Source of the DNA: Deltaproteobacteria bacterium
GTDB taxonomy: Bacteria > Myxococcota_A > Polyangia > Polyangiales > JADJMO01
Reading direction: 5' to 3'
NCBI GenBank assembly: GCA_022843175.1
Contig: JALHOE010000077.1
Location: 1-36,927, forward strand
DNA: 36,927 nt
A model generated the notes under the pieces. The model was not told the DNA's origin and did not search any database. It was given only the letters and a program-made list of their open reading frames with translations. The position numbers and the translations under genes were made by a program. Of this stretch, positions 7,151 through 29,874 are shown in pieces. Every line of letters starts with the position of its first letter. Position 1 is the stretch's first letter.

Positions 7151-8417
7151 TCGAGCCCTTGGAGAGCAGATCGGGCACCGGCTCGAGCTTGCCGGCGCCG
7201 CGGAGGCGCGTGACCACGGTCTGATCGAAGTCGGCGAACCCGCTCGGACGCACGACGATCACGTCGACGACGCCGCCCCCCTTGGCGATCACGAGGTCGA
7301 CGATGACGGTGCCGTTGCGAAGCTCGAGCTCGAGCGCGCGGGGAAACGCGTCGCTCACGAGCGGCCCGAGGCGCTTCTGCAGGCCGAGGAACCACGTCGT
7401 GCGTTCGATCTCGTGCGGCGCGTCGGCGGGCCCGGAGCCGCTGCCGAGCGCCGCGGACTGACTGCCCTCGCCGCTCTTGCCGCCCGCGCCGGGGGCGTCG
7501 CCGCCGCCGCAGCAGCCCTTGCCCTCGGCGAGCGCGGCGGCGCCGTTGGTGGAGTTGGAGACGACCGACTTGAGCGCGACGGCGACCGCCTGATCGGCGT
7601 CGACGCTGTCGCTCGCGGAGCCCTTGAGGTTGCTCGCGACGTTGGGCTTGGCCTTGAGCACGTGCGGACGCCCCTTGGCGACGTTCGCGCCGGCCTCGGT
7701 GGGCAGCCCGACGATCGCCTTGCCGTAGGCGGCCCCGCCCGCGGGCGACGCTGGGCCGCCCGAGACCTTCGGCGCGCCGTCGCCGACCACGGGCTCACCG
7801 CCAGCCGGAACGCTCTTGCCGCCGGCTGCGCCGATCGACGCATCGACCTTCGCGATCGGATGACGCTCGTAGCGGAAGCCCTTGCCCGACGCCACGAAGG
7901 TGAGCTCCATCGGCTCGAGCGCGCTGCGAACGTCGAGCTTCGACGCGCGCTTCTTGCTCGTCTTGAGGCGATTCTCCTGCTCGTCGTCGATCGCGTCTCG
8001 ATACGTCGTGGTCGTCGTCTCGTCCTCGGCGTTGGCGGCGAGGTTGCGCGCCTTCATCGTGGTGGTGACGTCGCCGCCCTTGCCGGCGTGGTCGCCGTCG
8101 ACGTGCGCGGTCTTCGCGCCACCCGCCTCGACCACCGTGGGAAGCGGCAGCGGAGCCGGAGCGGCCGCGACCACCAGCGCGTCGCCCTTCATGGTCGGGA
8201 GCTCGACGACGATCGGCGCGTCGGGATCGGGCAGCGGATACACCCGACCCGCCTCCGGCTCGCTCGGGCTGGACGCGCGCGTGGCCACGACGCCGAGCGC
8301 GAACGCGCCGAGCAGCAGGTGCGCTCCGATCGAGGCGAGCGCGGCGACGTGCCACGCGCCGAGCACTCGGTCGGGGACTCCGGCCGGGCGCTCGTCTCGA
8401 TCGAACAGATCTCCCAC
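7107..8417 (-). CDS. TonB-family C-terminal domain protein
   Basis: 436 residues from GTG at 8417. One transmembrane helix near the N-terminus (about 25-47, VAALASIGAHLLLGAFALGVV) gives a type II topology, with a long periplasmic part. Residues about 60-340 are Gly/Ala/Lys-rich and low in conserved features, with a CCGGG cluster in EGKGCCGGGD. The last ~95 residues form a TonB-type C-terminal domain: FLGLQKRLGPLVSDAFPRAL, GTVIVDLVIAKGGGVVDV, VVRPSGFADFDQTVV. Such domains pass proton-motive energy or mechanical force to outer-membrane receptors. The linker is not the classical Pro-Glu/Pro-Lys repeat, so the partner could be a gliding or secretion complex rather than a siderophore receptor. No ExbB/ExbD genes are adjacent. 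The 3' end overlaps the convergent membrane-protein gene. Confidence 0.85.
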   Translation of the reverse strand: MGDLFDRDERPAGVPDRVLGAWHVAALASIGAHLLLGAFALGVVATRASSPSEPEAGRVYPLPDPDAPIVVELPTMKGDALVVAAAPAPLPLPTVVEAGGAKTAHVDGDHAGKGGDVTTTMKARNLAANAEDETTTTTYRDAIDDEQENRLKTSKKRASKLDVRSALEPMELTFVASGKGFRYERHPIAKVDASIGAAGGKSVPAGGEPVVGDGAPKVSGGPASPAGGAAYGKAIVGLPTEAGANVAKGRPHVLKAKPNVASNLKGSASDSVDADQAVAVALKSVVSNSTNGAAALAEGKGCCGGGDAPGAGGKSGEGSQSAALGSGSGPADAPHEIERTTWFLGLQKRLGPLVSDAFPRALELELRNGTVIVDLVIAKGGGVVDVIVVRPSGFADFDQTVVTRLRGAGKLEPVPDLLSKGSITVRVPIHGGWRLQ

Positions 8418-8449
8418 GGGTGACCCGTATTATGACGCACGAACGGCGC

Positions 8450-9442
8450 TCAGAATTCGACGACCGCGGCGCCCCAGGTGAACCCGGCGCCGAAGGCGGC
8501 CATGAGCACGGTCGAGCCCTCTTTGATCTTGCCGTCCTTCCAGGACTCCGAGAGGCCGATCGGGATGGTCGCGGCGGTGGTGTTGCCGTAGCGCTCGATG
8601 TTGTGGACCACCCGGTCCTCGGGGATTCCGAGCTTGCCGGCCACCATCTGGTTGATCCGCATATTGGCCTGGTGGGGCACGAACAGATCGACGTCGGCCG
8701 GGGTTTTGCCGACTTTCCCGAGGACCGACAGCGCGATCTCGGGCATCTTCTCGACCGCCCAGCGGAACACCTGCTTGCCGTTCATCTTCGGGAAGTGGCG
8801 GCCCTCGTCGAGCATCTTGTGGTCGATCCGCGGGTCGCACATCGACGCAGGTGCCTCCACCCACAGCTCTTTGTAGCCGACGCCGTCCGCCGCGACCTCG
8901 ACCGTCCGGACCCCGCGTTCGCCGTCGGTCGGCTGCACCACCACCGCGCCGGCGCCATCGCCGAACAGGACCGCGACGTCCCGACCGCGCTCGTTGAGCT
9001 CGATGCCGGTGGAGTGCACCTCGGCGCCGACGATGAGGACGTTCTTGTGCACGCCCGCGCGAATCCACGCGTCGGCGATCTGCAGCGAATAGAGGAACCC
9101 CGAGCACTGGTTGCGCACGTCGAGCGCGGCGATCTGCCGGCACCCGAGCTTGTGCTGGAGGATGCAGGCCGAGCCGGGGAAGTACACGTCGGGAGACAGC
9201 GTCGCGAAGATGATCGCGTCGACGTCCTTGGGGCCGAGGCCGGCCTGCTCGAGCGCGCTCTTCGCCGCGGGCATCGCGAGATCGCTCGCGCCGATCCCGG
9301 AGTGCTCGATGAAGCGGCGCTCCTTGATGCCGGTGCGTTGCTGGATCCACTCGTCGCTGGTGGGAAACAGCTTCGCGAGATCGTCGTTGGTGACGACACG
9401 GGTGGGGACGTAGTGACCGGCTCCGGTGATGCGTGCGCGCAT
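8450..9442 (-). CDS. fabH: 3-oxoacyl-ACP synthase III (FabH)
   Basis: 330 residues from ATG at 9442, the normal length for KAS III. The enzyme condenses acyl-CoA with malonyl-ACP to start fatty-acid synthesis. The triad is complete: Cys113 in VRNQCSGFLYSL, His257 in FVPHQANMRI and Asn287 in ERYGNTTAATIP. The N-terminal ITGAGHYVPTRVVTNDDLA and the GDGAGAVVV segment (161-169) are family hallmarks. No other fab genes (fabD, fabG, acpP) lie in the window. This could therefore be a stand-alone FabH copy with its own primer preference, for example branched or unusual starters common in myxobacteria. The TonB-like gene follows after 32 bp on the same strand, and a candidate terminator separates FabH from the upstream RNase HII-like gene. 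Confidence 0.95.
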   Translation of the reverse strand: MRARITGAGHYVPTRVVTNDDLAKLFPTSDEWIQQRTGIKERRFIEHSGIGASDLAMPAAKSALEQAGLGPKDVDAIIFATLSPDVYFPGSACILQHKLGCRQIAALDVRNQCSGFLYSLQIADAWIRAGVHKNVLIVGAEVHSTGIELNERGRDVAVLFGDGAGAVVVQPTDGERGVRTVEVAADGVGYKELWVEAPASMCDPRIDHKMLDEGRHFPKMNGKQVFRWAVEKMPEIALSVLGKVGKTPADVDLFVPHQANMRINQMVAGKLGIPEDRVVHNIERYGNTTAATIPIGLSESWKDGKIKEGSTVLMAAFGAGFTWGAAVVEF

Positions 9443-16288: not shown

Positions 16289-17254
16289 TCACGGGCAGGG
16301 GTGACCGGACTGGCCGGGCGCCTTCCACCAGTTGAGGCCCTGACAGACGCCGAGCGTCGTGTGCTGCGGGCCGTACTTGATGCCGTAGGCGGACATCATG
16401 GAGTCGTCGTGGCAGTTGTGCTCGCCGCCGCCCGAGTTCCAGTCGTAGCTCGTGAGGCAGGCGCCGTTGATCGAGCTGATGTTGCCGGTGCTGTCCTGGT
16501 GGAAGTAGCCGCCGCCGCCGCTGCCGCTGCAGGTGACCTTGCTCATGCCGCCCGCGCAGGTGCCGTGCTGACACGAGTCGACGACCGCGCCCGAGGCCGT
16601 CCACACGCGCACCGCCGAGTGATGGCCGGCGCAGATCCAGGCGACGCACGCGATGTTCTTGTAGCGGATCTGGTAGCTCGCCTGGCCGACCCACACGTCG
16701 CCGTAGCCGACGGTGTCCCTGGGGAGCTCGCCGGTCTTCACGTCGATCTCGCGCGGAACCTTGGCCGACACGCCGAGGTCGCCGAGGCTGATGGTGTGGA
16801 ACGAGACCTTCTGCGGGAACTCGTGCTTGGTGATCGCCTGCGCGGCCTCCGCGGCGAGCTCGAGGGCCTGCGGGGTGACCACGACCTTCTTCTGCAGCTC
16901 CTGCTTCTTGAGGTCGGCCTCCCAGGTCGGGTCGGCGAACGTGTCGCCGCCGCGCTGCAGCGCGACGATGTTCCCCTTCGCGTCGACGAAGCGGGCGTCG
17001 ATCTCGTACTCGCCGAGCTCGGGCGAGACGTTGCGATGGAACTCGGGGCGCACCGCGCCGCGCCGGGTCTCGAAGTAGACGACAGCGCCTGCGTGCTTGA
17101 AGGCGCCGGTCACGCCGATGTCGTCGGTCGCCTCGAAGACCGTCAGGCCCTCGGAGAGGCTCTCGGGCGAGGGACGCGAGCTGCTGCCACCGCAACCCAG
17201 GGCAGCCACCATCACGCACCCGGCAGCCAGCATCAGCGTCGTCATCGGCTTCAT
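16289..17254 (-). CDS. Secreted Cys-rich lipoprotein under a sigma-54-type promoter
   Basis: 321 residues from ATG at 17254, supported by GGGAGG six bases upstream. The signal peptide ends in ALGC (Cys21), a lipobox-like site, followed by a Ser-rich linker. Residues about 35-200 contain beta-strand patterns and a helix (QALELAAEAAQAITKHEFP). The last ~125 residues are Cys-, Gly- and His-rich: ACVAWICAGHHSAVRVW, DSCQHGTCAGGM, GEHNCHDDSMMSAYG, GVCQGLNWWKAPG. About eight Cys residues suggest a disulfide-bonded extracellular domain; the His/Asp residues might bind metal, but no known protease motif is seen. A strong sigma-54 promoter match lies 69-84 bp upstream and three inverted-repeat sites lie further up, so expression is likely activator-dependent. 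Function unknown. Confidence 0.88.
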   Translation of the reverse strand: MKPMTTLMLAAGCVMVAALGCGGSSSRPSPESLSEGLTVFEATDDIGVTGAFKHAGAVVYFETRRGAVRPEFHRNVSPELGEYEIDARFVDAKGNIVALQRGGDTFADPTWEADLKKQELQKKVVVTPQALELAAEAAQAITKHEFPQKVSFHTISLGDLGVSAKVPREIDVKTGELPRDTVGYGDVWVGQASYQIRYKNIACVAWICAGHHSAVRVWTASGAVVDSCQHGTCAGGMSKVTCSGSGGGGYFHQDSTGNISSINGACLTSYDWNSGGGEHNCHDDSMMSAYGIKYGPQHTTLGVCQGLNWWKAPGQSGHPCP

Positions 17255-17322
17255 CGGAGACCTCCCTGGAGTTCAACTGGGTCGTTTGCTCGACCCGCTG
17301 TCTCTCGGACGGAGGCACCCTT

Positions 17323-17338
17323 TGCGACGGCTGTGCCA
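17323..17338 (-). promoter_or_regulatory. Sigma-54 (-24/-12) promoter
   Basis: On the minus strand the sequence reads TGGCACAGCCGTCGCA. Against the sigma-54 consensus TGGCAC-N5-TTGCW it differs at one consensus base, with the invariant GG and GC exactly ten bases apart. A start of transcription near 17312 would give a leader of about 58 nt before the ATG of the Cys-rich lipoprotein gene. The inverted repeats at 17382-17461 lie at about -78, -119 and -139, the usual range for activator sites. Confidence 0.65.
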
Positions 17339-17381
17339 CTTCGACAAACCTGCGAAATGTCATGGCGGTCGCCCGCCACAC

Positions 17382-17461
17382 GGTTCAGTTCCCGAACCAA
17401 ACGTCCCGAAGGCGGACAAATCGGTTCAATTCGTTAACAACCGGTTCATTTTCCGAACCGG
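17382..17461. promoter_or_regulatory. Three GGTTC-N7-GAACC-type sites upstream of sigma-54 promoter
   Basis: Site 1 (17382-17398) and site 3 (17443-17459) are both perfect GGTTC-N7-GAACC inverted repeats. Site 3 extends to CCGGTTC/GAACCGG at 17441-17461. Site 2 (17423-17439) keeps GGTTCAATTC on the left, but its right arm is degenerate (TAACA). Centres are 41 and 20 bp apart, close to four and two helical turns, so all sites face the same side of the helix. This is the layout of a bacterial enhancer for a sigma-54 activator. Site 3 overlaps the stop codon of the HTTM gene and could also act as its terminator hairpin. Confidence 0.6.
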
Positions 17462-18336
17462 CTCCGCAGCGCCCGTGAGCGGGCCACGAGCGCGCTGACG
17501 TCGTCGTCGTCGAGCGCGAGCAGCGCCCCGAACGCGAACATGCAGTAGAAGAGCGGCGGCACCTCGAGCATCGCAATGATCCCGAGAAAAAAGGCCTCGT
17601 AGGCGATCAGCGCGGCGAGACGGGTGCGCTTCCACAACAGAAGCGGCGGCGCTCCCACCTCGACCACGATCGTGAACCAGGTGAACGTTCGGGTCACGAG
17701 CGGGTGGTGAAGCAAGCCGACCTGCGTGACCCAATCGCGCAGCAGGAAGCCCTTCGGGTACGAGAGCAACACGCCCATCTCGTTCACGAACGGCCAGCCG
17801 GCCAGCAGCTTCTCGATGCCGGCGAAGAACACCCCGATCAGCGTCTGCGCGAGAATCAGCCCCGGCAGCAGCCGCGGCTCGACCGGCGTCTCCCTCGACG
17901 CCCATGCGTCGACCGAGAGCGCGCCGCTGCCGCCGCCGACGAGCCCCCACAACAGGAAGATCGCCCACGTGTTCACCAGCGCGAGCGTCTGCACCGGCAG
18001 CCCGTTGAAGCTCGCGAAGCTGTAGACGCCGAGGCCGGCGACGATCGCCGCGACCCTCGTGCGCAGTCCGATCGCGCCGCACACGCAGGCGAGCATCGTC
18101 ACGATCGACATCAGGCGGAGCGTCCCCGGTCCGAGGTCGTCGAAGCGGAGGTAGAGCCAGTGGCTCCACTCGTCGCTCCGCAGCGCGCCGCGCCGATAGG
18201 CGTCGTCGAGCGTGATCAGCGAGGGAAAGAAGTGGAGCGCCACCCCGACGAAGAACGCGACACGGAAGATCGCGAGCGGATACGGAGTGCCCGTCCCCTC
18301 GAACCGCGCGAAGAACCTATCGGTCGCGGAGGCCAT
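17446..18336 (-). CDS. HTTM-domain membrane protein (vitamin K-dependent carboxylase-like)
   Basis: 296 residues from ATG at 18336; a longer reading to 18438 adds a Ser/Arg-rich stretch without family character. Several membrane helices are clear: YPLAIFRVAFFVGVALHFFP, GTLRLMSIVTMLACVCGAIGL, VNTWAIFLLWGLVGGG, PGLILAQTLIGVFFAGIEKL and ALIAYEAFFLGIIAML. The opening FRVAFFVGVALHF and the AQTLIGVFFAGIEKLLAGWPFVNEMG region are typical of HTTM proteins, which share the fold of eukaryotic gamma-glutamyl carboxylase. Bacterial members are mostly uncharacterised. The start overlaps the end of the small partner gene by 20 bp, so they are probably co-expressed. The stop codon lies inside an inverted repeat that may serve as terminator or upstream operator. 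Confidence 0.85.
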   Translation of the reverse strand: MASATDRFFARFEGTGTPYPLAIFRVAFFVGVALHFFPSLITLDDAYRRGALRSDEWSHWLYLRFDDLGPGTLRLMSIVTMLACVCGAIGLRTRVAAIVAGLGVYSFASFNGLPVQTLALVNTWAIFLLWGLVGGGSGALSVDAWASRETPVEPRLLPGLILAQTLIGVFFAGIEKLLAGWPFVNEMGVLLSYPKGFLLRDWVTQVGLLHHPLVTRTFTWFTIVVEVGAPPLLLWKRTRLAALIAYEAFFLGIIAMLEVPPLFYCMFAFGALLALDDDDVSALVARSRALRSRFGK

Positions 18337-18787
18337 GGGCACCGCAGACGAGGGTCTTGGTTTGGCTCGGCGTTCGGGGATCGACGTCGACCTGGTACTC
18401 GGTGACGAAGAAGCTGAGCTCTTCTTTTCGGGCTCCATAGGCGCGGTAGCAGAGCTCTCTCAGGTAGTCGCGCTTGAGGAGCACGTTGATCGCGAGCCGC
18501 GCGTGCCGGTAGCCGATGGAGGGCGTCCGAACGAGCTCGACGAGATCGTGACGGACGCCGTCCGGGCCCGCGTACTCGTAGGTCTGCACCACCCGCAGGT
18601 TCTTGTTGAACATGACGTGGCCGTACTTGAGGTGCGGCAACACGAGGTCGAAGCGCTGGCCGAAGAGCTTCTCGGCGATCGTGTGGTTCATCGCGCCGAG
18701 CACGCTGAGCGCGATCCATGCGACGACGAGCACCCGGCGATCCGTCACGGAGCCGATGATACCGCGGGCGCGCGGTTTGACTTTCAT
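18317..18787 (-). CDS. Small membrane-anchored partner of HTTM protein
   Basis: 156 residues from ATG at 18787, or 143 from GTG at 18748; neither start has a clear ribosome binding site. After a basic N-terminus one helix is visible (VLVVAWIALSVLGAMNHTIA). A soluble domain follows (FDLVLPHLKYGHVMFNKNL, RTPSIGYRHARLAINVLLKRDYL, EELSFFVTEYQVDVDP). The end, CGAHGLRDR, overlaps the HTTM start by 20 bp. Proteins of this size often accompany HTTM genes, so a shared complex in the inner membrane is inferred. It is divergent from the FG-GAP gene, and the two possible 5' ends lie within about 40 bp. Confidence 0.75.
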   Translation of the reverse strand: MKVKPRARGIIGSVTDRRVLVVAWIALSVLGAMNHTIAEKLFGQRFDLVLPHLKYGHVMFNKNLRVVQTYEYAGPDGVRHDLVELVRTPSIGYRHARLAINVLLKRDYLRELCYRAYGARKEELSFFVTEYQVDVDPRTPSQTKTLVCGAHGLRDR

Positions 18788-20563: not shown

Positions 20564-21760
20564 GTGCGCTGGCTCGCCCTGTCGACGGTCCTGCTGGCCG
20601 CGTGCGTCGACGTCGAGCTCGGACACCGCGCCGAGGCCATCGTCGCGGGCGAGCTCGCCGGCGCGGATCCAGCGGTCGTCGCGCTGACGGAGGCCAGCGG
20701 GCGCGTGATCTGCAGCGGCACGCTGATCTCCCCCCACGTGGTGATCACCGCCGCCCACTGCGGGATCGACGCGACGAACTTCCGCTCGTTCCGCGCCGTG
20801 TTCGGCGCCTCGGCCAGGAGCGGCACCGCGATCGCGCTCAGCGACGCGCGCGCCCACCCGGAGTTCAACGCGGCGACCTTCGCGAACGACCTCGCGCTCC
20901 TGACGTTGCGCGTCCGCTCCGAGGTCCCGCCGATCGCGCTCGCCACGACGGCCGACGCGGCGGCGCTCCCCTCGACCGCGGTGCGCATCGTCGGCTTCGG
21001 CGTGAGCGCGGCGATGGCCGGCGACAGCGGGACCAAGCGCGAGGGGCGCGCGAGGGTCGACGCGGTCTCCGCGAAGACGTTCCACATCGCGCCCGACCCG
21101 TCGCAGCCGTGCGTGGGCGACTCGGGAGGGCCCGCGTTTCTCACCCTCGGCGCCGCCGAAGTGCTGGTCGGCGTCACCAGCACCGGTGACGAAGCGTGCG
21201 TGAAGGGCGCGACCGAGACGCGCGTCGATCCCTTCGCCGACGGCTTCGTGGCTCCCTACCTGGCGCGCTCGCGCGACGGCGTCGCGGCCCCCGGCGAGCC
21301 ATGCTTGTTCGAGGGGCACTGCGCCGGCGGCGCCTGCGTCACAGCCGAGGACCAGCCGGCGATCTCGTACTGCGCGACGCCCTGCTCCGACGCCGCCGGA
21401 TGTCGCGCCGGCATGCGATGTCGCGCGGGCGAGTGCCGATGGCCGCTGCCCACCCCGGGCGCGCTCGGCGCCCGCTGCGCCCTCGACACCGACTGCGTCG
21501 AGGCGGAGTGCTCGCCCTCGCTGCGCGTGTGCACCCAACGGTGCGATCCGCTCTCGCCCACGTGTCCCGCCGACTTCGCGTGCAGCAAGACGTCCGCCAT
21601 TCGCTTCGAGTGCGTCGCGCGCCCCCCGACGGTCGTCCGCGCTGCGGGTGGGGGGTGCGCGCTCGCCGCGCCGAGGCTCGCCGCGCGCACCTTCATCCCG
21701 ATCGTGGCGCTGCTCGTCCTTGCCAGCCTGCTCCGACGCGCGAGTCGCCCGTATCACTGA
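20564..21760 (+). CDS. Trypsin-fold serine protease with MYXO-CTERM-like tail
   Basis: 398 residues from GTG at 20564. The signal sequence ends in LLAAC (Cys14), a lipobox. A short propeptide leads to IVAGE at 26-30, the usual mature N-terminus of S1 proteases. The triad is complete: His65 in ITAAHC, Asp109 in NDLALL and Ser187 in GDSGGP; Cys50/Cys66 and Cys183/Cys212 are placed for the standard disulfides. The residue six before Ser187 is Gln, not Asp, so Arg/Lys specificity is not expected. Residues about 245-345 hold Cys-rich modules (CLFEGHCAGGACV, CRAGMRCRAGEC, CALDTDCVEAECS). The C-terminus has GGGC, a hydrophobic helix (FIPIVALLVLASLL) and RRASR, the plan of the MYXO-CTERM sorting signal handled by myxosortase. 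A predicted lipid anchor at one end and a sorting tail at the other is unusual. Confidence 0.92.
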   Translation: MRWLALSTVLLAACVDVELGHRAEAIVAGELAGADPAVVALTEASGRVICSGTLISPHVVITAAHCGIDATNFRSFRAVFGASARSGTAIALSDARAHPEFNAATFANDLALLTLRVRSEVPPIALATTADAAALPSTAVRIVGFGVSAAMAGDSGTKREGRARVDAVSAKTFHIAPDPSQPCVGDSGGPAFLTLGAAEVLVGVTSTGDEACVKGATETRVDPFADGFVAPYLARSRDGVAAPGEPCLFEGHCAGGACVTAEDQPAISYCATPCSDAAGCRAGMRCRAGECRWPLPTPGALGARCALDTDCVEAECSPSLRVCTQRCDPLSPTCPADFACSKTSAIRFECVARPPTVVRAAGGGCALAAPRLAARTFIPIVALLVLASLLRRASRPYH

Positions 21761-23788: not shown

Positions 23789-25153
<1,365 letters not shown>

Positions 25154-25166
25154 AGCTACGCAAACA

Positions 25167-25194
25167 TTTCTATGACGATCTGGCCGGGAAGCAA
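25167..25194 (-). promoter_or_regulatory. Candidate promoter of the NtrC-type regulator
   Basis: On the minus strand, TTGCTT (25194-25189) and TAGAAA (25172-25167) are separated by 16 bp. They lie in the 62-bp gap between the tandem kinase and the regulator. A start near 25160 would give a leader of only about seven nt. This is a weak match, so co-transcription with the kinase gene remains possible. Confidence 0.25.
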
Positions 25195-25215
25195 GGCCCG
25201 TTTGTGCCGCCACGA

Positions 25216-28203
25216 TCAGCCGAGCAGTTTTTGCGTGGGCTTCTTCTTCTTCATGTGGCGCACGCCGGCCTTGTGCGGATGGACGAGCTCGAGGTCCTTG
25301 AGCATGCCCTTGGCCTCCGCCTGATCGGGGTGGCTCTTGAGGATCTCCTCCAGGCGCGCGCGCGCTTCGTCGTAGCGGCCCGCGGCGCGCAGCGCGCGCG
25401 CGTCGAACATCCGCGGCTCGACGGCGGCCTTGTCGGCGTGGCGTGCGATCCACGCGACGCACGCCTGATGGGCCTCGGTCGGCTGCCCGGCGGCGAGCGC
25501 GGCGCGGGCCCACGCCGCGGCAGAGGCCGCAGTGCCGTCCTCCTTGGCGCTCCGCGCGAGGTCGAGCGCGACCTCGGTCTCGCCGGCGCCGATCTTCTCG
25601 TCGATCTCGGTGATCTTCGACTTCGGCTCCACCGTCGAGGCGAGCAACGGGGCCGGCGAGGACACCGCGGGCTTCACGGTCGGCTTGGGTCGCGCGATCG
25701 CCGCGGGGATCTCCTGCGTCGGGGCCGGCATCGGCAGCGCGACGCGCGGCTCCTGCTTCATCATCGGCTTCATCACGGGCGTCTCCGGCGGCGCGGCGAT
25801 CGGGGCGTGGGCCGCGACGACCGGCGCGGACGCGCTCTTGAGCACGTGGGCGCGCTGCAGCAGGTGAACGAGGTCCTCCTTGCTCAGCGGCTTGTGGCCG
25901 CTGCCGATGAAGGCCGCGATGGCGCAGCTCGCGATCGCCGCGAGGGCGAGGGGGCCGAACTTACGGCGGCGCGGACGCTCGATCCGCGAGGTGCGCTCCG
26001 GCTGCTCGGTCGCGCCGCCCCGCGGGGCGTCGAAGACCATGTCGTAGTCGAGCTCGACGGGGATCTCCCGGACCGGCGCCAGCGCGGGCACGCTCTTCTC
26101 GTCGGTCGAATAGAACCCGCCGTAGCACGCCTCCTCGAGCGCTTCGCGCATCTCGCTCGCGTCGTGGAAGCGCGCGCCGCGGTCCTTGGCCAGCGCCTTC
26201 ATCACGACCTTCTCGACCGCCTCGGGGATCCCGCGGTGGGGAGCGACCTCGCGGACCGGGCGCGCGTCCTCGCGGAGGTGCATCGACATCATCAGGATCG
26301 GCGACGGCGCATCGAACGGCGTGCGACCGGTCAGCAGCTGGTAGAGCACGCAGCCGAGCGCGTAGATGTCCGCGCGACCGTCCACGTCGCTGCCGTTGAC
26401 CTGCTCGGGGGCCATCGTGTCGGGCGTGCCGAAGATCGCGCCGGCCTTGGAGAGGTTCGGATCGTCCTCGCCGCGGATCTCGCTCGCCGACGTCGGCGCG
26501 CCCTCGCCGCGCATCTCCTTGGCGACGCCGAAGTCGAGGAGCTTGAGCCCGATCTCGCCGAACGAGGTCGGCCTGCGGCCCTGGTAGTTGAGGAACAGGT
26601 TGGCCGGCTTGAGGTCACGATGGACGAGCCCCGCGGCGTGCGCGGCCTCGAGCGCGCGGCAGGTCTTGATCGCGAGCTCGCAGCCGTCGCGCCAGTCGAT
26701 GCCCTTCTCGCGGTCGATGAACGACTCGAGCGTCTCGCCCTCGAGGCGCTCCATCGTGAAGAACAAGCGGCCCGCCCACTCCGAGTCCTCGGGCGCGCCG
26801 GCGGTCTGACCGAAGTCGTAGACGTGCACCAGGTTGGGGTGCGAGAGCGACGCGATCGCGCGGGCTTCGCGGCGGAAGCGCGCCACGAACTCCGGCGACG
26901 CCGAGTGCTGCGCCTGCAGCAGCTTGACCGCCACCTTGCGCCCGAGATCGACGTGCTCCGCCTCGTAGACGACGCCCATCGCGCCCTCGCCGAGCCGGCG
27001 GATCAGGCGGTAGCGCGTCCCCGGCAGGGCGTCGGGCGTGTCGCTCGCAGGCTCGGGGGTGCTCTCGCGGCGACGCGCGGGAGCCGACGGCGAGAGCTCC
27101 GAGAGCTCGCTCGCGAGCACTCGGCGCGCCTTGGCGACGAGGCGCACGAACTCCACGCGCGAGGCGGCGGGCTCGGTCGGATAGAGGCGGGCGAGCATCG
27201 ACTTCACCCGGGCGCGCACGCCGCGCTCCTCGACGGGCCGACGCGGCGCCGACGACAACAGGCCCGCGAGCGCCTGCGCGGCCTCGCGCCCGTGTCCGCA
27301 GCGCGCCGAGGCGACCGGCTCGGTGAGCCACGCGACGATGCGATCGAGCTCGGCGGGGATCGGGCCGTCGCCGAGCTGGGCGAGGGTGGGATCGCCCGAC
27401 AGCTTCGCGGGACGCAGCTTCCCCGCCGTGACGTTCGCGACATGATCCGCGGCGTCGCCCTCGAGGAACCGACGCCCCGCGGCCAGCTCCCACAGCATCA
27501 CGCCGAGCGCGTAGAGATCGGCGCGCGGCGTCGCCGAGTCGCCTCGAGCGACCTCGGGGGCCACGTAGCCGGGCTTGGCGAGCACGGTGCCCGAGACGGT
27601 GTGGCAGCGGCGGTTGTCGCCGCGCGCGGTGCCGAAGTCGATGAGCTTCACGTCGCCGGAGAAGCCGACCATCACGTTCTGCGGCGAGAGATCGCGGTGC
27701 ACGATCCCGAGGGGCGCGCCGTCGGGGCCGGTCCGCTCGTGGACGTGGGCGAGGGCGCTCGCCATCTCCAGCGTCACCGCCACCGCGTCGGCCCAGGGCA
27801 GGGGCTTGCCGAGGCGCGAGAGCCGCGCGCGCACATCGGCGAGCGAGCGTCCCTCGACGTACTCGACCACGACATAGGGATCGCCGTGCTCGTCGACCGA
27901 GGCCTCGATGATCCGAGCCACGCCCGGATCGTCGAGCTGCGACTGGACGCGCGCCTCGTCGAGGAAGCGCGCGTGGAAGGAGGGATCGCTCCGGTAGTCG
28001 CGGCGGATTCGCTTCACCACCACCGGCCGCTCGGCGCCCTCGATGCCGATCGTCGTCGCGAGGAAGACCTCGCCCATTCCGCCGCGCACGAGCAACCGCA
28101 GGAGGACGTAGTGTCCGAGGAGGCGGGGCAGCACGTCGGCCGGCTCGGCCTTGTCGGTCGTGTTCGCGTTGGCCTTCGCGGCGAGCGTGGCGGCGTTGCT
28201 CAT
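25216..28203 (-). CDS. Tandem two-domain Ser/Thr protein kinase with TM helix and TPR-like C-terminus
   Basis: 995 residues from ATG at 28203. Kinase domain 1 (about 30-310) has Gly loop VRGGMGEVFLA, Lys64 in VVVKRI, HRDLSPQN (169-176), DFG at 189-191 and APEV. The catalytic-loop Lys is replaced by Ser, as in many myxobacterial kinases. Kinase domain 2 (about 397-690) has GEGAMGVVYEA, Lys427 in VAVKLL, HRDLKPAN (528-535), DFG at 557-559 and APEQ, a fully canonical set. A basic stretch (RPRRRK) precedes one helix (about 750-768). The outer part (about 770-995) is Pro/Ala-rich, then helical with TPR-like units near RMFDARALRAAGRYDEARARLEEIL. Two complete kinase domains in one receptor suggest trans-phosphorylation within the chain. 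It is upstream of the NtrC-type regulator and divergent from the zinc-ribbon gene. Confidence 0.93.
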   Translation of the reverse strand: MSNAATLAAKANANTTDKAEPADVLPRLLGHYVLLRLLVRGGMGEVFLATTIGIEGAERPVVVKRIRRDYRSDPSFHARFLDEARVQSQLDDPGVARIIEASVDEHGDPYVVVEYVEGRSLADVRARLSRLGKPLPWADAVAVTLEMASALAHVHERTGPDGAPLGIVHRDLSPQNVMVGFSGDVKLIDFGTARGDNRRCHTVSGTVLAKPGYVAPEVARGDSATPRADLYALGVMLWELAAGRRFLEGDAADHVANVTAGKLRPAKLSGDPTLAQLGDGPIPAELDRIVAWLTEPVASARCGHGREAAQALAGLLSSAPRRPVEERGVRARVKSMLARLYPTEPAASRVEFVRLVAKARRVLASELSELSPSAPARRRESTPEPASDTPDALPGTRYRLIRRLGEGAMGVVYEAEHVDLGRKVAVKLLQAQHSASPEFVARFRREARAIASLSHPNLVHVYDFGQTAGAPEDSEWAGRLFFTMERLEGETLESFIDREKGIDWRDGCELAIKTCRALEAAHAAGLVHRDLKPANLFLNYQGRRPTSFGEIGLKLLDFGVAKEMRGEGAPTSASEIRGEDDPNLSKAGAIFGTPDTMAPEQVNGSDVDGRADIYALGCVLYQLLTGRTPFDAPSPILMMSMHLREDARPVREVAPHRGIPEAVEKVVMKALAKDRGARFHDASEMREALEEACYGGFYSTDEKSVPALAPVREIPVELDYDMVFDAPRGGATEQPERTSRIERPRRRKFGPLALAAIASCAIAAFIGSGHKPLSKEDLVHLLQRAHVLKSASAPVVAAHAPIAAPPETPVMKPMMKQEPRVALPMPAPTQEIPAAIARPKPTVKPAVSSPAPLLASTVEPKSKITEIDEKIGAGETEVALDLARSAKEDGTAASAAAWARAALAAGQPTEAHQACVAWIARHADKAAVEPRMFDARALRAAGRYDEARARLEEILKSHPDQAEAKGMLKDLELVHPHKAGVRHMKKKKPTQKLLG

Positions 28204-28401
28204 GGCCCGAAGGTGCCGATGTAGGTGCGCGACGTACAACTTTTCGTTGTCACTTTTTCGGCCCGATTTGCGAGCGCGTGGCAGCGGGGCGCGGAGACCA
28301 GCTCGAACCAACCTCTGAGGTTGCCTCTCAAGCGCTGGAAATGGCTGACGAAAGATCTCCGCACTCAGAGCGCTGCACGAACTGGCGTATCGTTCGAGCG
28401 A
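28204..28401. other. Divergent intergenic region with two palindromes
   Basis: 198 bp between the tandem kinase gene and the zinc-ribbon gene. It contains ACAAC-TTTTC-GTTGT (28236-28250), a perfect inverted repeat 33 bp before the kinase start, and CAACCTC-T-GAGGTTG (28309-28323), a 15-bp near-perfect palindrome about midway. Both are less GC-rich than their surroundings and are candidate operators. No convincing -10/-35 pair was found on either strand. Confidence 0.4.
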
Positions 28402-29874
28402 ATGTCGGTTTGCCCGTGGTGCAAGGCGCGGAACCCGCCCGGAAATCAGACATGCCTCAAGTGCGGCAAGCGCGCGGCGGACCACCCCTCGGTCACCGGG
28501 CGCGTCGTCGGCGACGAGTTCGGCGACGACGACGACGTCGCGCAGGGCCCCGCGCTCGACCTCGATCTCGACACCTCGCGCGCGCAGCCGGGAAGGACCC
28601 AGCAGGAGTTGGGCCGCGAGGTGACCGACGGGTTCGGCGACGAGGACGAAGACGAGCCGCCCCCCGGCGGCGCGCTCGATCTCGATCTCGGGTCGCCCGA
28701 GGCGGACTACGAGCCCCACGCGCCGGTCGCACCAGAGCCGGAGAAGCCGAAGCCGCGCGAGGCGATCACGCGGCCGGGGCCGGCCGCGGGCGAGGGGATC
28801 GAGATCGATCCCTTCGAGGTGCGCGCGCTCGCCGACTACGGGCCCGATCCCAAGGGAATCGTCGCGGCGGTCCCCTACGCGTTCCGCGTGCTCCGCCGGC
28901 AGCGCGACCTCAAGCGCGCGCTCGAGGGCGTGCGACGCAACCTCCGCGACGCCGAGGCCAAGCGGGACGAGCGCCTCATCGAGCTCGGCACCCTGCTCAA
29001 GCCGATCATCCTCGGCAACGCCGAGTATGCCTCGATCGCCTCGTCGCTCGGAAGCGCCGAGAAGCTCGTGTCGGAGCGCGAGCAGGCGCTCGCCGAGACC
29101 AACAGCGCCTTCCGCGACAAGGCCAAGGCGATCGACGAGCAGATCGTCCAGCTCGATCCGACGCTCGCCGCCGCGCGCGCGACGATCGACGAGAAGCAGC
29201 GCGCATTCGAGGACGCCGATCGCCTTCGCCAGAAGCACGAGGCCCGCCGCAAGCGCGTCGAGATCGATGTCCGCGGCGCGCAGGCGAAGCTCGCGGCGCT
29301 CGAGACCTCACAGGCCGATCGCGCCGCCGCCCAACAGCTCGTCGCGGCGGCCAGCCAGGAGCGCGAGACCCGGGCCGCCGAAGAGGCGCTCGCGCAGCAG
29401 GCCGCGAGGGCGGCCGAAGCCGAGCTCGCCCGTGCGCGCGGCCACTACGAGCAGATCGAGGGGCAGGTCGAGGCGCTCCGCAAGAAGCGCCGCCTCCTCG
29501 AGCAGGAGTTCTCCCGCCAGGGAGCCGTGCGGAGCGAGGGCGTCGACGCTGCCTCCAAGGACGTGCGCAATGTCCTCCTCGAGGTCGGTCGCAAGACGTG
29601 GAAGGCCGGACCGGACGTCGAGGGCGCGGCCATGCGCCGCAAGGGCGTCACCGACGCCGAGGCCCAGGTGACGAAGCTCCAGGTCGAGATGGAGAAGCAC
29701 GTCCGTGCGCTCGGCGCGGCCGACAAGCCGGCGGTGCGCAACGGGCTCGTGGTGGCGCTCGCAGCCGCGGTGATCCTGCTCGGCTCGTTCATCGCGTGGC
29801 GCGCGCTCCGCTCGAACCCATACTTGGAGCAGCAGCCGAAATCCCAGTTGGCCGCGCCGCTCCGCTACGTATGA
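28402..29874 (+). CDS. Zinc-ribbon, coiled-coil, tail-anchored membrane protein
   Basis: 490 residues from ATG at 28402. The N-terminus is a zinc ribbon: Cys4 and Cys7 in CPWC, Cys18 and Cys21 in CLKC. Two acidic repeats follow: EFGDDDDVAQGPALDLDLD and GFGDEDEDEPPPGGALDLDL. A Pro-rich stretch leads to a long coiled coil (about 185-430) rich in Glu, Ala, Arg and Lys (for example RRQRDLKRALEGVRRNLRDA and EQIEGQVEALRKKRRLLEQ). One helix near the C-terminus (about 455-473, VVALAAAVILLGSFIAWRA) anchors the protein, with the coiled coil and zinc ribbon facing the cytoplasm if the tail is the only helix. The stop overlaps the trpF start as ATGA. The architecture resembles a scaffold or tether rather than an enzyme. 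Function unknown. Confidence 0.85.
   Translation: MSVCPWCKARNPPGNQTCLKCGKRAADHPSVTGRVVGDEFGDDDDVAQGPALDLDLDTSRAQPGRTQQELGREVTDGFGDEDEDEPPPGGALDLDLGSPEADYEPHAPVAPEPEKPKPREAITRPGPAAGEGIEIDPFEVRALADYGPDPKGIVAAVPYAFRVLRRQRDLKRALEGVRRNLRDAEAKRDERLIELGTLLKPIILGNAEYASIASSLGSAEKLVSEREQALAETNSAFRDKAKAIDEQIVQLDPTLAAARATIDEKQRAFEDADRLRQKHEARRKRVEIDVRGAQAKLAALETSQADRAAAQQLVAAASQERETRAAEEALAQQAARAAEAELARARGHYEQIEGQVEALRKKRRLLEQEFSRQGAVRSEGVDAASKDVRNVLLEVGRKTWKAGPDVEGAAMRRKGVTDAEAQVTKLQVEMEKHVRALGAADKPAVRNGLVVALAAAVILLGSFIAWRALRSNPYLEQQPKSQLAAPLRYV

Follow-up and report, generated by a model that had tools for sequence, protein, structure and literature searches.

The DNA analysed here, which we call the window, is a 36,927-nucleotide stretch of a myxobacterial contig (JALHOE010000077.1). 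On its minus strand, an open reading frame at positions 16289–17254 (GC3 0.96) encodes P0001, a predicted secreted Cys/His-rich lipoprotein of 321 aa, and an HTTM-domain gene lies upstream at 17446–18438. Reading the minus strand from 17458 to 17323, three GTTC-N7-GAAC dyads are followed by the sigma-54-like GG-N10-GC promoter TGGCACAGCCGTCGCA (17323–17338), and the lipoprotein gene starts at 17254. The promoter-proximal dyad GTTCAGTTCCCGAAC (17383–17397; minus-strand reading GTTCGGGAACTGAAC) stands 45 bp from the promoter GG and is followed upstream by a degenerate dyad GTTCAATTCGTTAAC (17424–17438; minus-strand reading GTTAACGAATTGAAC) and by the distal dyad GTTCATTTTCCGAAC (17444–17458; minus-strand reading GTTCGGAAAATGAAC), which overlaps the stop codon of the HTTM-domain gene. 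The initial annotation had described a near-consensus sigma-54 element with dyads spaced 41 and 20 bp apart. Direct reading of the window confirms these spacings, and TGGCACAGCCGTCGCA departs from TGGCAC-N5-TTGC by a single mismatch with its GG and GC ten bases apart. A possible extra degenerate dyad, GTCCCGAAGGCGGAC (17403–17417), recognized by eye at 20 and 21 bp from its neighbours, divides the 41-bp gap into 20 + 21. Transcription is only predicted to start near 17312.

Taken alone, the promoter match in the window is weak and no better than chance: allowing up to two mismatches, we found 23 promoter-like sites in this 70% GC window versus 25.7 expected. A single GTTC-N7-GAAC dyad is likewise not unusual: 48% of simulated windows contain one, and the genome to which the window belongs holds 90 copies, compared with 20 of a reversed control. 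By contrast, none of 400 order-2 Markov copies of the window, and 0.025% of copies simulated from the AT-richer 246-bp region, contained a pair of exact dyads within 100 bp.

DNA-only pattern searches covering five genomes of one myxobacterial family reveal that this arrangement recurs. The refined dyad GTTCRGNNNCYGAAC was found 30 times versus 4 for the reversed control, and tandem dyads 39 times versus 0, while single dyads outside clusters are about as frequent as in the control. The repeats originally described as GGTTC-N7-GAACC are real, although GTTCAG-N3-CTGAAC is the better consensus. With further loci contributed by combined dyad and promoter searches, the catalogue comprises 77 dyad sites at 27 promoters, usually with three dyads each. 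The tandem pattern alone defines about 17 separate clusters, 14 of which precede genes of three predicted secreted classes; two of the remaining three fall outside these classes (G000:C8, before a GAF histidine kinase, and G004:C137, before an unclassified gene and with no sigma-54 element), and G003:C222 was not classified. A covariance model of the dyad, built on sequence only, is too short for significant E-values, and its top matches all lie in known clusters. Elsewhere in the class, tandem dyads occurred in only 7 of 116 sampled genomes, as single matches, and we rejected a class-wide spread of the motif. The initial annotation had asked whether further genomic copies accompany sigma-54-like promoters and had raised the possibility of a new regulon; dyads do recur at other such promoters, and the 27 promoters, the excess of tandem dyads over the control and their retention in relatives strongly support the proposal. 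The window element is one member of what we regard as a real regulon.

Two loci at the edge of this set are recorded separately. At G000:C62 (L068:4460–4497), a large gene for a Cys-rich, lipoprotein-like product of unknown family has two weaker dyads and GGGCATGGGAGCTGCA before it and may be a further member. At G000:C8, three dyads (L020:7882–7940) are found ahead of the gene for an orphan GAF histidine kinase (7995–9209), which may belong to the system; the sigma-54-like element there, CGGCACTGCGCTTGCT, points away from the kinase, and no clear gene was found in that direction.

Association with sigma-54 elements is close. With elements required to score at least 5 out of 8 and to lie no further than 140 bp downstream of the last dyad, we found one equivalent to that of the window at 25 of the 27 promoters, compared with 3.4% of random positions (binomial P = 6e-35, a value that overstates independence because the counts include paralogues). 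The fraction is 22 of 24 after removal of three promoters found using a sigma-54 query term, and the two promoters with no good element are G003:C114 and G002:C92. Across 26 aligned promoters the GG and GC are invariant, with the consensus TGGCACG-N4-CTGCT, and the pairing of dyads with promoters spans three genera plus a metagenome contig.

The spacing of the dyads follows preferences of its own. The suggestion that whole helical turns stack activators on one face of the DNA does not extend to a general rule: neighbouring dyads elsewhere are mostly 15–24 bp apart, and strict 41/20-bp phasing was rejected since spacings vary across the 27 promoters. The 41/20 arrangement is therefore local. 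Neighbour spacings are mostly about 19 bp plus about 15 or about 23 bp, in either order, and the outer dyads are 41–44 bp apart in most trios (about 42 bp, close to four turns) and 32–35 bp apart otherwise. Between the proximal dyad and the promoter GG lie 29–33, 40–46, 53–55 or 77–79 bp, values that follow a period of about 12 bp (Rayleigh R of 0.75, reached by 0 of 5000 jittered sets). This analysis omits two promoters whose elements are distant or weak and, for G003:C114, uses a weak element picked out by eye. Relaxed DNA has 10.5 bp per turn, less than this period, and the paralogues do not count independently; the regularity is therefore only suggestive.

Genes downstream of nearly all the tandem clusters fall into three predicted secreted classes, named after short motifs read by eye: Cys/His lipoproteins of the P0001 type, phospholipase-A2-like lipoproteins and alpha/beta-hydrolases that are possible lipases. 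In the phospholipase-A2-like lipoproteins, CxGRCGxGC and DCxDHDxC are conserved, a tentative assignment made on a calcium-loop and CxxHDxC-type criterion with no Pfam or PDB profile match, and the hydrolases carry HGxGD or HGR together with GxSxG-like motifs. Profile searches of the classes against Pfam, NCBIfam and PDB returned no match except one below threshold, of a hydrolase to DUF7379. Profile comparison suggests that an N-terminal part including the signal peptide is common to both lipoprotein classes (95% probability). The output of the regulon is probably a set of secreted, lipid-acting proteins, and it may serve a digestive or predatory role.

P0001 itself carries the motifs CxHGxCA and GxHNCHDDS, and the statement in the initial annotation that the target gene belongs to no known family is supported: P0001 has no sequence match in Pfam, NCBIfam or PDB. 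AlphaFold models have a mean pLDDT of 64 for P0001 and 76 for its homologue L050; Foldseek returned no match for either at E 0.001 or better, VIA-align 2 reached a best Z of 2.9 on the lipoprotein model, and assignment of a PDB fold was dropped. The invariant CNHGxC and HNCHDD residues suggest that the family is enzymatic. The own genome encodes three paralogues of P0001 (C276, C7 and C1); the congener G003 has two homologues, and a further genus has one. Two or three dyads stand upstream of all seven family genes, the window gene included, and GG-N10-GC occurs at the expected place in six of the seven (for example CGGCACGAAGAGTGCT, CGGCACGAAGGCTGCT and TGGCACGCCGGCTGCT). Loss of the repeats in close relatives retaining the gene had been named as evidence against the proposal; these relatives keep both gene and repeats, which favours the finding. 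Likewise, the metagenome contig JABWBL010000380.1 (L044) encodes two tandem family members, each with 3–4 dyads and a sigma-54-like element.

Several observations accompany this family. JABWBL010000380.1 is filed as a Planctomycetaceae MAG yet has the myxobacterial enhancer, and is probably mis-binned. The Gammaproteobacteria Lysobacter concretionis and Pseudofulvimonas gallinarii (L058, L060) encode the same Cys/His protein family, and no sigma-54-like element was seen at the Lysobacter gene. Genes for trypsin-like proteases recur close to the family lipoproteins (L018:3571–4917, L022:6173, L025:4966, L053:5009, L057:4729 and window 20564–21760); at C276 the protease gene is divergent, and the dyad region is common to protease and lipoprotein. 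In two different genomes, sensor-kinase-like genes (L056:1116–2837 and L057:1005–2855) lie directly upstream of the lipoprotein gene, with an HEINNP motif in L056 and a receiver-type motif in L057.

Distant lipoprotein homologues in other Myxococcota place the promoter in a wider setting. A sigma-54-like element is present upstream of 10 of 13 such genes, compared with 3.0% of random positions (P = 2e-13), and these 10 elements lie 19–79 bases before the start codon. The dyads upstream of distant homologues differ from GTTCAG-N3-CTGAAC, with TTAGACAGCGTCTAA in L049, GGTCTGTTCTAGACC in L046 and GCTCAAATATTGAAC in L053. Because distant homologues keep the elements and not the dyads, sigma-54 control of the family seems to predate the GTTCAG enhancer, and the upstream regions of L045–L056 suggest that enhancers were rewired between lineages.

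We consider it very likely that 17323–17458 is a sigma-54-dependent promoter with a dyad enhancer for bEBP dimers, and a member of a regulon in five genomes with a secreted, probably lipid-acting output. What the computation shows is that the dyad recurs in tandem, accompanies GG-N10-GC promoters, is conserved and precedes genes of a particular kind; from this we infer bEBP binding, hexamer assembly, activation and the enzymatic activities of the products. Each 15-bp dyad (GTTCAG-N3-CTGAAC) would bind one bEBP dimer, and three dyads would gather three dimers as a hexameric AAA+ ring, which would loop over to sigma-54 RNA polymerase and open the promoter. The active form of bEBPs is a hexameric ring, and the simplest reading of the trios would be one dimer per dyad, three in all. 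NorR offers a precedent at norVW, where three enhancer sites are indispensable and act as the scaffold of the oligomer (PMC2941729).

Other explanations of the locus make different demands on the same evidence. If the dyads were operators of a repressor or another non-bEBP regulator, the sigma-54 elements would be served by a different activator; this would suit the distant homologues, which retain sigma-54 elements without a GTTCAG dyad, and a dyad beside a -10-like box at the start of the bEBP gene on contig C54 does look operator-like. At the regulon promoters, however, the dyads lie 29–79 bp upstream in trios, at preferred distances as for activator sites, and do not overlap the promoters, and we judge the operator reading unlikely. 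A LexA-type SOS box, which in M. xanthus has a GTTCAG half-site, fits poorly with tandem trios upstream of sigma-54 elements and was set aside. It is highly improbable that the promoter match arose by chance and that the repeats are either an unrelated dispersed element or the HTTM-domain gene's terminator. GG-N10-GC matches of such quality are common in the GC-rich window and the HTTM stop codon shares bases with the distal dyad, but the pairing recurs at 25 of the 27 promoters, across three genera and a metagenome contig, far above chance; only the dyads and the promoter recur without any longer repeat sequence, and no T-run follows the dyad.

With about 70 sigma-54 activator domains in the own genome, the choice of a bEBP for this enhancer is not self-evident. 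The best candidate, tentative and with a weak link to the regulon, is the protein encoded by a bEBP gene on contig C54 (L063:4060–7140; 1026 aa, GAF-PAS-AAA+-HTH, with GAFTGA present), which may also regulate its own expression through one dyad at its start. This gene carries GTTCAACAATTGAAC directly before its start codon; in the G003 orthologue, GTTCAGCAATTGAAC occupies the equivalent position next to a TACAAT box, within diverged flanks. The protein is single-copy in five of five genomes at 69–79% identity, with an identical helix-turn-helix core across all five; outside the family it has only partial matches of 34–45% in 3 of 115 sampled class genomes, where the tandem motif is rare too. 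Among 50 bEBP genes scanned it alone has a noncoding dyad near its start, in a scan that reached 50 of about 70 genes. Against this candidate, the dyad is absent at the G004 and G002 orthologues, no regulon target adjoins the gene, and single dyads are common in the own genome, so that the dyad on C54 may be a chance occurrence.

Other regulators were considered and rejected. The C8 GAF histidine kinase, as a common sensor, was found in only two of five genomes at E 1e-40. Dyads close to bEBPs on C1 and C27 lie inside paralogous histidine-kinase coding sequence and are therefore probably not regulatory. A bEBP near the G003:C131 lipase (L090) stands about 3 kb from the lipase, next to an oxidoreductase-type gene, and the window bEBP at 23789–25513 has no dyad nearby to mark it as a local regulator. 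The latter encodes a receiver-AAA+-HTH activator, and its frame overlaps that of 25216–29238, in which two Ser/Thr kinase domains and TPRs were matched.

A more specific and doubtful proposal is that the promoters form a dedicated regulon for digestion of prey lipids. One GAF-PAS bEBP would sense a prey- or lipid-derived signal and switch on secreted phospholipase-like lipoproteins, lipases and undescribed Cys/His lipoprotein enzymes, through an enhancer whose three dyads keep a fixed geometry (spacings of about 19 bp plus 15 or 23 bp) and template the hexamer; in other Myxococcota, the same targets would be under sigma-54 with rewired enhancers.

To our knowledge, myxobacteria carry dozens of sigma-54 activators, most of them without known targets. 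The regulon supplies a promoter set with a consensus, a geometry and a coherent output, ready for matching to an activator. It groups as co-regulated three secreted families without a match in the family libraries, opens the control of secreted lipolytic, possibly predatory, enzymes to experiment, and, with its two enhancer geometries, provides a way to ask how enhancer DNA acts as a template for a bEBP hexamer.

A literature search, largely without subscription papers, did not turn up this motif or regulon; systems of this kind are known, while the motif and regulon are new in that they matched nothing searched. NorR recognizes GT-N7-AC, a site that differs from GTTCAG-N3-CTGAAC. NorR–norVW of Escherichia coli resembles the present system in having three enhancer sites upstream of a sigma-54 promoter (PMC2941729), but differs in regulator, signal and target genes. 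Closer in lineage, NmpR of Myxococcus xanthus binds GCGCA-N5-TGCGC, a 15-bp dyad also placed in tandem upstream of myxobacterial sigma-54 promoters, but usually at two sites with a preferred spacing of 14–15 bp and at oxygen-related genes (PMC11841059); the consensus here, GTTCAG-N3-CTGAAC, does not follow that pattern. Nla28 of M. xanthus is likewise a bEBP with several tandem sites per sigma-54 promoter in its regulon, but binds CT(C/G)CG(C/G)AG half-sites, which the regulon dyad does not match, and controls developmental, metabolic and defence genes (PMC9765219). The motif thus differs from both myxobacterial sites compared, consistent with the earlier remark that it was not recognised as the site of a named NtrC-family activator. 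Although it concerns single lipase operons of Gammaproteobacteria, and although the target families here have no Pfam relation, the nearest functional parallel is the control of Pseudomonas lipases by LipQ/LipR and CbrA/CbrB, in which NtrC-type activators work with sigma-54 (reviewed in PMC12134079) and, in a comparison made without site sequences, an upstream activating sequence serves secreted lipase genes.
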